Below are positions 15,777-61,701 of a stretch of 64,000 nt of DNA, piece by piece (the first letter of the stretch is position 1; each line of letters starts with the position of its first letter). The notes below the pieces were generated by a model. That model made no database searches. It worked only from the letters and a program-made list of their open reading frames with translations, and was not told the origin of the DNA. The DNA lies in assembly GCA_947488155.1 (NCBI GenBank), contig CANKYK010000002.1, positions 998,001 through 1,062,000 on the forward strand. Reading direction: 5' to 3'. This stretch comes from an uncultured Erythrobacter sp. Its GTDB lineage: Bacteria > Pseudomonadota > Alphaproteobacteria > Sphingomonadales > Sphingomonadaceae. Position numbers and translations under genes: made by a program.

Positions 15777-15801
15777 CCTTCGACAGGCTCAGGACGAACG
15801 G
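15777..15801 (+). repeat. Dispersed palindromic repeat, family A, single copy
   Basis: A 25-base copy with core TTCGACAGGCTCAGGACGAA. The same element recurs at 33336-33360, 33755-33778, 48947-49016 and 59042-59135. This copy has no inverted partner nearby. Confidence 0.85.
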
Positions 15802-33335: not shown

Positions 33336-33360
33336 CCGTTCGTCCTGAGCCTGTCGAAGG
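33336..33360 (-). repeat. Dispersed palindromic repeat, family A
   Basis: Exact 25-base copy, on the minus strand, of the element at 15777-15801. With 33755-33778 it forms an inverted pair around the GIY-YIG gene. Confidence 0.85.
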
Positions 33361-33754: not shown

Positions 33755-33778
33755 CCTTCGACAGGCTCAGGACGAACG
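33755..33778 (+). repeat. Dispersed palindromic repeat, family A
   Basis: Plus-strand copy, identical over its first 24 bases to the element at 15777-15801; inverted relative to 33336-33360. Confidence 0.83.
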
Positions 33779-48946: not shown

Positions 48947-49016
48947 CCGTTCGTGGTGAGCTTGTCGAACCACGTGCATCAGGAACCACGTCCTTCGACA
49001 GGCTCAGGACGAACGG
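48947..49016. repeat. Inverted doublet of palindromic repeat family A
   Basis: Units 48947-48972 (minus) and 48992-49016 (plus, exact copy of 15777-15801) face each other across 19 bases. Ends nine bases before the photolyase start. Confidence 0.83.
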
Positions 49017-58101: not shown

Positions 58102-61100
58102 ATGGCATTTGCTCCGTTCATCCCGCTTCGCGTTCTATCGTCTTACTCAATGTTGGAGGGGGCGATTGATCCAAAAGGGATTGCAAAACTCGCCAAGGAA
58201 CGCGGCTTTCCCGCAATAGCTATCTGCGACCGCAATGGCCTCTATGGTGCAGTGATGTTCGCCTCCGCCTGCAAGGCTGAGGGTGTGCAGCCGATCATCG
58301 GGACATTGCTGGGTGTTGCAAGGCCGAGCAATGATGAGCGTGAACGCACAATTGTGGATTACCTGCCGCTGTTTGCTCAGGACGAGGCGGGCTATGACAA
58401 TCTGTGCCATCTTGTTTCAAAGGCGCACCTTGATCGCCCGCTGGAGCTGGATCCGCATGTCGGCATAGAAGAGCTCGAAGGTCGCACCGATGGCTTGATC
58501 GCCCTGACTGGCGCAGGCGAGGGCGCTCTCACCCGATTGCTAGCGGAAGAGCAGATCGAGGCAGCACATACGCTGTGCGATACTTGGCAGCGCTTGTTCC
58601 CGGAACGGCTCTATGTGGAGCTGGCACGCAATGGTGATGACGCGGCGGCGAAGGCGGAGGAGGCTCTTATCGAGCTGGCCTATGCCCGCGACCTGCCGCT
58701 GGTTGCGACAAACCCGTCCAACTTTGCCGATCCGCACATGCACAAGGCGCATGATGCGATGCTTTGTATTGCAAATTCGACTTATATCGAGAACGAGGAT
58801 CGCCCAACCTCCAATGCGCAGGCCTTTGTCAAATCCGCGCCGATGATGGACGAGCTATTCGCCGACATACCAGAGGCGATGACGAACACACTCGTAGTGG
58901 CTCAACGTTGCGCCTTTGCCCCGCCGTATCGCGACCCGATCCTGCCCAGCCTCGCTGGCGATTTGGAGGGTGAGGCGAAAATGTTGGCGGAGGAATCGCG
59001 CGCAGGGTTGGTGGACCGCTTGAAGCCTTACTACCCGGAAGCCGTCCATGCTGAGCTTGTCGAAGCATTGCATTTCTCTTCGGCAAGATTGCTTAGAGAA
59101 GAAGTGCAGTCCTTCGATAAGCTCAGGACGAACGGAATTTGGGAGGATGTGCTCGAGTACAAAGAGCGCCTCGACTACGAGATCGACATAATCGTCAAAA
59201 TGGGCTTTCCCGGCTACTTCCTGATTGTTGCCGACTTTATCAAATGGGCCAAAGACAATGGCATTCCGGTGGGTCCGGGGCGCGGCTCAGGCGCAGGGTC
59301 GATTGTGGCCTGGGCGCTGACCATCACCGATCTTGATCCGATCCAATTGGGTCTGCTGTTTGAACGCTTCCTCAATCCAGAACGCGTATCCATGCCGGAC
59401 TTCGATATCGACTTCTGCGAAACCCGGCGGGGCGAGGTGATCCGCTATGTTCAGCAGAAATATGGCGATGATCACGTCGCCCAGATCATCACCTTTGGTA
59501 AGCTGAAGGCACGCGCGGTCCTGCGCGACTGCGGACGGATTTTGCAGATGAGCTATGGCCAGGTCGACCGCCTCTGCAAGATGGTGCCAAACCATCCGAC
59601 CGATCCGTGGACATTGCCGCGCGCGCTTAATGGAGCGGCCGATTTCAAGGCGGAGTACACCAATGATAATGAGGTAAAGCGCCTGGTTGATCTGGCGATG
59701 CAGTTGGAGGGGTTGCCGCGTAATTCCTCCACTCACGCGGCGGGTGTGGTGATTGGTGATCGGCCATTGGCGCAGTTGGTGCCGCTGTACCGTGATCCGC
59801 GCTCTGACATGCCGGTGACGCAGTTCGACATGAAGCATGTTGAAAGCTCTGGCCTCGTCAAATTCGATTTCCTAGGGCTCAAGACCCTGTCGGTGCTGCG
59901 CAAGGCCGTCGACCTGCTGGAGCTGCGCGGGATCACCATCGATCTTGGCGAACTGCCGCTTGATGACTCTGCGGTCTATGATCTCATGCAGGATGGTAAC
60001 ACAGTCGGTGTGTTCCAACTGGAATCGGAAGGCATGCGGCGCACGCTGAAAGCGGTGAAGCCGAGCAATTTCGGCGACATTATCGCACTCGTCTCGCTCT
60101 ATCGCCCAGGCCCGATGGATAACATCCCGCTGTTTGGTCAGCGTAAGGCGGGCGAAGTCGCGATTGAATATCCGCATGAGAAACTGGAGGGTATTCTCGC
60201 CGAAACCTACGGCATTTTTGTCTATCAAGAACAAGTTATGCAGGCCGCGCAGATTCTGGCCGGATATTCACTCGGTGACGCGGATTTGCTGCGCCGCGCG
60301 ATGGGTAAGAAGGTCCAGGCCGAGATGGACGCACAGCGCCAGCGCTTCGTTGACGGGTGCAAGACCTGCTCTGACATCGAAGCCAAACAGGCCAACGAAT
60401 TGTTCGACTTGATCGACAAGTTCGCAGGCTACGGCTTCAACAAATCGCATGCGGCGGCCTATGCGTTGCTCGCCTATCAAACCGCATGGCTGAAGGCGCA
60501 TTACCCAGAGGAATTCTACGCCGCCTCCATGTGTTTCGACCTGCATCAGTCGGAAAAGCTGTCGATCTTTGTCGATGATGCACGGCGCTATCCCACCGGT
60601 GATGAGGGTGGGATCACGGTTCTGCCGCCAGACATCAACCATTCCGAGGCACGCTTTACAGTGGAGCAGACCGACAATGGGTACGGCGTGCGCTATGCGC
60701 TGGCCGGCATCCGTAATGTCGGTGAGAAGGCGATGGATGCGATTGTCGCGGAACGCCAAGCGAGCGGACCGTTTGAGAGCCTGCAAGACTTGTTCGACCG
60801 CCTGCCTCAGGGCAGCATGAACCGCCGCCAGCTGGAAGGTCTGGTCGGCGCAGGCGCGCTTGATTGCCTGGAGTCCAACCGCGCGGCGATCTTCGCCAAT
60901 GTAGACATGTTGCTGGCGATTGCGGACGCGGCAGAGCGTGAGCGATCGAGTGGACAAGTGGCTCTGTTTGGCGGTGAGAATGCACCGCAAGAGGAACTGC
61001 GTCTCAAGGTGACCGAGGAATGGTCCCGCACAGAGCAAATGGCGAAAGAGCGCGAAAATTTCGGATTCTACTTTGCGGCTCATCCGGTGCAGCAATACCG

Positions 61101-61701
61101 CGAAGTCGCCTCGGCCAATGGCGCGCGAACGTATCAAAGTCTGATGGAGGCAGGCGCTCCACCCGGTGGGCGCGGAACCGCCGTCATCGCAGCGATGGTG
61201 GAGGGTATGAACAAGGCCCGGACCAAACGCGGCGGCGAATTTGTGCGCGCGGATTTCTCCGATTCGAGTGGGCAATTTTCGGCCGCCTGCTTTGAAGAAA
61301 GCCTAGTGCCAGAATTTGAGAAATGGGCGGCAGAGGGCGCGTGCCTGCTACTATCCGTTGAGCTCGATTCGCCCAATCCCGGTGAACCACCGCGGCTGAC
61401 GGTGCGCGGGGCGAAGCCACTGGCCAGCGTGAGTGGTCGCACTCCGATGATGATGCGCGCCGATGTGACCCGGGCTGAGGCGCTGAGCGAGCTGAAACTG
61501 TCGCTCACTACAGGTGAAGAGGCACCCGGAGAGGTTCTTGTGCGATTGATCCTGGCTGACGGGCAGGAGGCGCATATGCGCCTTGGACGCGGCTTCATTC
61601 TCGACGGTGATTTGGCCGGGCGGGTCGCCGATATCGAGGGGATTGAGAACGTTGAGTTGCAGCCGCTGCGAGGCCGCGCGAACCTAAAGCTCGTCGCTTA
61701 G
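58102..61701 (+). CDS. dnaE: DNA polymerase III alpha subunit
   Basis: 1199 residues from the ATG at 58102 (MAFAPFIPLRVLSSYSMLEG); the frame is open 14 codons further up. PHP domain to about 270, polymerase palm with PDFDIDF (catalytic Asp435 and Asp437), GPGRGSGAGS and the fingers, then the OB and tau-binding domains. It is the replicative polymerase. Residues 314-346 are encoded by an inverted repeat doublet (59042-59135) and are absent from the DnaE proteins I know; the insert lies just before YKERLDYEIDIIVKMGFPGY. Confidence 0.96.
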   Translation: MAFAPFIPLRVLSSYSMLEGAIDPKGIAKLAKERGFPAIAICDRNGLYGAVMFASACKAEGVQPIIGTLLGVARPSNDERERTIVDYLPLFAQDEAGYDNLCHLVSKAHLDRPLELDPHVGIEELEGRTDGLIALTGAGEGALTRLLAEEQIEAAHTLCDTWQRLFPERLYVELARNGDDAAAKAEEALIELAYARDLPLVATNPSNFADPHMHKAHDAMLCIANSTYIENEDRPTSNAQAFVKSAPMMDELFADIPEAMTNTLVVAQRCAFAPPYRDPILPSLAGDLEGEAKMLAEESRAGLVDRLKPYYPEAVHAELVEALHFSSARLLREEVQSFDKLRTNGIWEDVLEYKERLDYEIDIIVKMGFPGYFLIVADFIKWAKDNGIPVGPGRGSGAGSIVAWALTITDLDPIQLGLLFERFLNPERVSMPDFDIDFCETRRGEVIRYVQQKYGDDHVAQIITFGKLKARAVLRDCGRILQMSYGQVDRLCKMVPNHPTDPWTLPRALNGAADFKAEYTNDNEVKRLVDLAMQLEGLPRNSSTHAAGVVIGDRPLAQLVPLYRDPRSDMPVTQFDMKHVESSGLVKFDFLGLKTLSVLRKAVDLLELRGITIDLGELPLDDSAVYDLMQDGNTVGVFQLESEGMRRTLKAVKPSNFGDIIALVSLYRPGPMDNIPLFGQRKAGEVAIEYPHEKLEGILAETYGIFVYQEQVMQAAQILAGYSLGDADLLRRAMGKKVQAEMDAQRQRFVDGCKTCSDIEAKQANELFDLIDKFAGYGFNKSHAAAYALLAYQTAWLKAHYPEEFYAASMCFDLHQSEKLSIFVDDARRYPTGDEGGITVLPPDINHSEARFTVEQTDNGYGVRYALAGIRNVGEKAMDAIVAERQASGPFESLQDLFDRLPQGSMNRRQLEGLVGAGALDCLESNRAAIFANVDMLLAIADAAERERSSGQVALFGGENAPQEELRLKVTEEWSRTEQMAKERENFGFYFAAHPVQQYREVASANGARTYQSLMEAGAPPGGRGTAVIAAMVEGMNKARTKRGGEFVRADFSDSSGQFSAACFEESLVPEFEKWAAEGACLLLSVELDSPNPGEPPRLTVRGAKPLASVSGRTPMMMRADVTRAEALSELKLSLTTGEEAPGEVLVRLILADGQEAHMRLGRGFILDGDLAGRVADIEGIENVELQPLRGRANLKLVA
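59042..59135. repeat. Family A repeat doublet inside the dnaE reading frame
   Basis: Inverted units at 59042-59067 and 59111-59135 (arm core CTGAGCTT-TCGAAG and its complement) lie in dnaE. In frame they encode AVHAELVEA, a spacer, and SFDKLRTNGI. The same element is intergenic elsewhere in the window. Confidence 0.88.

Follow-up and report, generated by a model that had tools for sequence, protein, structure and literature searches.

The window, a stretch of 64,000 nucleotides (G000:C2:998001-1062000) from a genome of 3.216 Mb (G000), contains the dnaE gene, within which a pair of inverted repeats is read in frame. The features concerned are given below, with coordinates counted from the first letter of the window.

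58102..61701, + strand: dnaE, DNA polymerase III alpha subunit, 1199 amino acids (ORF, Pfam, PDB 5fku and 2hpi)
59002..59166, + strand: linker of the long type, about codons 301-355 (three pairs compared base by base, windows, protein alignment)
59042..59135, + strand: in-frame palindromic repeat doublet of the longer size class, core-to-core span 76 nt (inverted repeat, fold, genome census)
59053..59065, + strand: 5' half-site core GAGCTTGTCGAAG, with flanking stem ATGC/GCAT (core match)
59112..59124, - strand: 3' half-site core with one mismatch, GAGCTTATCGAAG (core match)

The dnaE frame runs uninterrupted from the ATG at 58102 across the doublet, giving 1199 residues in total. The doublet consists of two arms of 36 nt each (59042-59077 and 59100-59135) which are 81% complementary and 22 nt apart. 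The RNA fold of 59035-59145 has an energy of -58.3 kcal/mol (z -8.4), and none of 200 shuffles was as good. Pfam assigns PHP to residues 9-176, DNA_pol3_alpha to 352-592, the finger domain to 595-754 and HHH_6 to 837-929. The segment bearing the doublet is located between the PHP and polymerase domains, in agreement with the alignment to E. coli alpha, and the domain boundary assumed in the original prediction is thereby confirmed. The extra residues had been given as 314-346. Those coded by the element are indeed approximately 314-345, but the part that differs between long and short forms of the linker is larger, covering about codons 301-355. The long type comprises 55 codons and the short type approximately 23, a net difference of about 32 amino acids.

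Allowing up to two mismatches, the core CTGAGCTTGTCGAAG matched 62 times in the G000 genome versus 5 times for the reversed control; the description of an inverted pair of a dispersed repeat, inserted with the frame kept open, was thus correct. Within the window, at the same tolerance of two mismatches, the 13-mer core matched seven times, two of these in the dnaE copy, against an expectation of 1.85, and none of 100 shuffles reached seven. The remaining copies are the following.

48947..49016, no strand assigned: doublet of the dnaE repeat family, outside evident genes, shorter size class (core match, census, ORF overlap)
15778..15790, - strand: single half-site of the same family (core match, ORF overlap)
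33347..33359, + strand: single half-site of the same family (core match, ORF overlap)
33756..33768, - strand: single half-site of the same family (core match, ORF overlap)

Rather than the five intergenic places initially proposed, these amount to five half-sites in four locations (15778, 33347, 33756 and 48958/48993), which overlap only short or doubtful ORFs or the end of an ORF. The 16 core pairs in the stretches examined showed spans of 52-57 nt (six pairs), 69-76 nt (eight pairs) and 61 nt (one pair), while the last, at 163 nt, is probably no true pair. With 76 nt, the dnaE copy fits the longer class, loop included. Doublets make up 15 of the 28 listed element sites, and some listed singles also have a nearby partner. 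In 33 half-sites, picked by their 13-nt core, the 4-bp stem around the core covaries, with 3.79 of 4 positions paired versus 3.02 (sd 0.11) upon shuffling; the highest of 2000 shuffles was 3.36. No Rfam family was found in the window at gathering score. Open frames also cross element half-sites at G000:C2:1298704-1298763, C2:805632 and C2:430475; we take these to code for MutL-like, dehydrogenase E2-like and perhaps PckA proteins. Mobilisation by a RAYT is unsupported. The one Y1 transposase match (PF01797, 27.9 bits; C2:759791-760069, L061) is weak and does not lie near any of the listed core copies, the nearest core among the matches listed being at C2:805632, and no RAYT gene flanked by repeats was found.

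The linker query matched 110 of 114 genus genomes (four gave no match); among the 97 whose linker was read, ten are long and 87 short. Repeat DNA is present in the long linkers of G000, G013, G028, G083, G084 and G087, and G033, G068, G076 and G099 possess homologous residues with no detectable repeat DNA. A private recent insertion in G000, into a previously naked site as the original prediction implied, is ruled out by the nine other genus members with homologous residues. Relatives having the residues in the absence of the repeat motif had been expected only if the insert were an ancestral part of DnaE. Such relatives exist in the four genomes just named, but G128 and G129, the nearest relatives of G000 in dnaE, have the short linker and are devoid of the residues, which are therefore not simply ancestral. 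Of the 17 relatives in which ValS was matched, G128 and G129 also show the highest identity to G000 (96% and 88%; G027, 87%), measured over partly differing stretches.

In the family, at least 29 of 397 genomes matched, at least 24 of them in DnaE, representing at least 14 genera; five of the 29 matched in loci that have no DnaE motif, and as no more than 16 candidates were scored per genome, long linkers may be missed. A named collection yielded 14 loci, including Erythrobacter vulgaris, E. fulvus, E. sanguineus, Tsuneonella and Novosphingobium. In G363, two dnaE-like pieces (L185 and L195) hold different long linkers; the assembly is listed as 4% contaminated and contamination is possible. 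None of 32 pattern matches in viral_contigs was confirmed as a viral carrier. The class-wide search matched one of 289 genomes, namely G000 itself, and returned no long linker outside the family. All seven parsed outgroup rows are without the long segment (L139, L140, L146, L147 and L149 were left out as unparsed, and G008 has no linker), and most of the family rows read have the short form, which is probably ancestral.

That this search gave no long linker outside the family argues against its being an old DnaE variant unrelated to the repeat, in which dispersed copies later converted matching peptide positions in repeat-rich genomes. Such overwriting would also have to reproduce the register, length and loop, all of which fit an element of the longer class. 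We consider this explanation unlikely, even though many genera contain long linkers that have no repeat DNA, for instance four g117 genomes of one clade (which entered the tree as matches), and T. aquaticus DnaE aligns here with a long stretch.

Three close pairs of long and short forms were compared base by base, and for 35 long rows, including G227, a window comparison was made against the nearest short row. Identity drops at about codons 301-355, sharply in close pairs and less cleanly in distant ones. Outside the linker, the DNA of G084 and G074 is 95.7% identical, with the break at codons ~301-355; their identity is also somewhat low (87-90%) across codons 270-295, and the differing tract may start earlier. 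The codons flanking the doublet differ from the short form as well, so that the whole segment differs, beyond the element alone.

For phylogenetic analysis, 201 rows were reduced to 191 by removing ten duplicate or partial rows by name, none for poor filling, and trees were calculated using FastTree and quick IQ-TREE only. G227, whose linker is of another sequence, was recounted from long to other. In the DnaE tree calculated without the linker, the 34 long rows require 25 changes between long and short, at least 19 of which are forced by well-supported branches. As long rows entered this tree because they matched, it gives no frequencies. A DNA tree of the genus with 39 rows (10 long, 27 chosen short and 2 outgroup) requires 8 changes, and a single long clade was rejected (p-AU 6e-44). 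Tree and AU test rule out purely vertical inheritance of the linker: long and short segments alternated many times while the remaining dnaE followed its own tree. Sister rows may even differ within the long type. G028 and G076 are sisters on the DNA tree with 90% identity across the gene and have different long linkers (66%), while G028 and G013, at 87% across the gene, have a common linker (90%). In most gene-divergence bands, long/long linker flanks have a lower third-position identity than short/short linkers; the two bands of smallest divergence (6 pairs and 1 pair) are the exceptions. This fits old forms weakly, since residues also vary more there.

Among the 34 long linkers, ten agree with the repeat arms in 37-42 of 42 bases, with p values of 0.0005-0.001 given each linker's own peptide and codon usage. 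These ten rows sit in 10 separate places in the tree and need 10 changes, as would be expected if every repeat-bearing lineage had received the element separately at a shared hot site. However, the ten linkers agree in frame and orientation, and outside the element they carry similar residues on either side, such as YYPE and GIW..VL.YK, which differ from those of short relatives. These common traits disfavour a separate insertion for every one of the ten linkers.

Third-position identity among the ten repeat-bearing linkers is 85.8% in the arms versus 59.5% in the rest of dnaE, with 41.0% and 52.4% in the flanks and 65.1% in the loop (pooled over 45 non-independent pairs). The arms are thus conserved as DNA. 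This conservation, together with the strong fold and the covarying stems around a near-invariant loop in the 33 half-sites, could point to direct selection of the hairpin as DNA or RNA, for example as dnaE mRNA structure or as the target of a binding protein, the same factor keeping the dispersed copies. Yet most DnaE genes read have the short form, and in four genus members the peptide is present but the repeat DNA is not; we regard this explanation as very unlikely.

The presence of repeat-like arms is associated with repeat load. Genomes contain 4-119 core copies in nine of the ten repeat-bearing cases and 0-59 in the 24 other long-linker genomes (Mann-Whitney p=0.0008, without correction for relatedness), the dnaE copy being included where it matches. 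This association, and repeat-like arms on differing linker backgrounds (G363, G453), would also be compatible with an old variant that was later overwritten. G363 retains repeat arms with merely 4 core matches in its genome. Leftover synonymous repeat signal is found in few of the 24 other long linkers (uncorrected p values: G414, 0.004; G201, 0.021; G467, 0.029; G295, 0.056), and the descent of these linkers from the repeat hence rests on in-register residues and similar length. With respect to homogenisation by the majority variant, the listed 3' arms read GGGCGAACGG in 26 of 34 cases in G083 and in 21 of 31 in G084, whereas the dnaE 3' arms of these genomes read GGATGAACGG and GGACGAACGG, respectively, which counts against it. 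In G153 the dnaE arm is the genome's majority variant (45 of 70).

Palindromic inserts are also present in other genes of these genomes, at the following sites.

G000:C2:258644-260725; L286, L287, L289, L292, L293: valS insert site
G000:C2:971026-971100; L297 (G027); L298 (G083): trmD element copies

A single valS site carries an insert in six of the 18 genomes that could be read, with at least three kinds of sequence represented; 12 genomes have none, and G013 is unreadable at this position. The dnaE-type repeat is found in G000, G083 and G087, a second palindromic family in G011 and G084, and another sequence in G001. A further element doublet lies along the G000 valS frame at G000:C2:258331-258391. 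In trmD, element copies occupy one loop in three of ten genomes (G000, G027 and G083); those of G027 and G083 are arranged alike, and that of G000 has the opposite arrangement. In G227, the DnaE linker (L259) contains a doublet of the second palindromic family, which gives 162 matches in that genome versus none for the reversed control; in G000 this family has no match. Palindromic doublets therefore occur repeatedly where essential genes, including dnaE, tolerate them, and the in-frame copies of G000 in valS and trmD bear out the suspected Rickettsia-like mode.

Independent insertion at single sites does happen, as G227 dnaE, valS and trmD show. Because of these inserts we have raised our estimate for separate insertions at a dnaE hot site from highly improbable to distinctly unlikely. 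The variable orientation in trmD speaks against this explanation for dnaE, where orientation is constant.

We favour a reading in which linker forms alternate after in-frame capture of a doublet and the arms stay repeat-like where the repeat is abundant. As a whole, we give it about an even chance, slightly lower than before, because palindromic inserts recur at single sites (G227 dnaE, valS, trmD). In this family the dnaE linker exists in alternative forms, a short one and a long one. The long form most likely arose by capture of a palindromic doublet at a tolerant inter-domain site. Alternation may have proceeded by short-tract homologous recombination between species, or old polymorphism may have been sorted between species. 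In repeat-rich genomes the arms within dnaE tend to remain repeat-like in DNA, possibly because dispersed copies convert them or because the hairpin is selected, and in repeat-poor genomes often the peptide alone remains. In the protein, the long linker is most likely a tolerated extension with a passenger role. It is conceivable, though we rather doubt it, that the linker represents a balanced trans-species polymorphism, with forms older than the species kept circulating by a selective agent and one long class re-written by a selfish palindrome.

A selfish-looking palindrome is thus built into a replicative polymerase, and gain, keeping and loss of a 32-residue segment become accessible to study. 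A selected alternation would point to a pressure on DnaE, and a neutral one would measure the ease of short-tract recombination between species. One site with repeat DNA, with peptide only or with neither also provides a natural test of repeat persistence.

In comparison with known systems, Rickettsia palindromic elements (RPE) are likewise dispersed palindromes that are read in frame in essential protein genes and add tens of residues. The likeness is one of mode; the dnaE doublet differs in occurring in other organisms, in the alternation of its segment with a short form across the family and in the conservation of its arm DNA. GTAG REPs with RAYT transposases are also short dispersed stem-loops, often paired, but in G000 the sole Y1 transposase match is not near the listed core copies. 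The CGTC-tagged REPs, common in alphaproteobacteria, are according to passages of one paper (PMC3733652) mostly inverted dimers with no associated transposase. In-frame REPs were published in 2013, and the same passages describe intragenic dimers encoding 20-30 amino acids, a likeness to the dnaE doublet. They also place a REP inside the DnaE of R. conorii, and others in genes for tRNA synthetase and in truB of both E. litoralis (spelt lithoralis) and S. alaskensis (PMC3733652). The G000 repeat agrees in its inverted dimers (15 of 28 listed sites) and in its lack of an associated transposase. It differs in structure, as the stem of the CGTC REP, as given in these passages, has 8-9 bp starting with AT and a loop of 4-5 nt (PMC3733652), whereas the G000 repeat has a variable 4-bp stem and a near-invariant 13-nt loop. 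A literature search, with subscription papers mostly outside its scope, returned no report of the letters or peptides of this repeat or of a switching DnaE linker. As far as this search shows, the new part is the switching linker with arms conserved as DNA.
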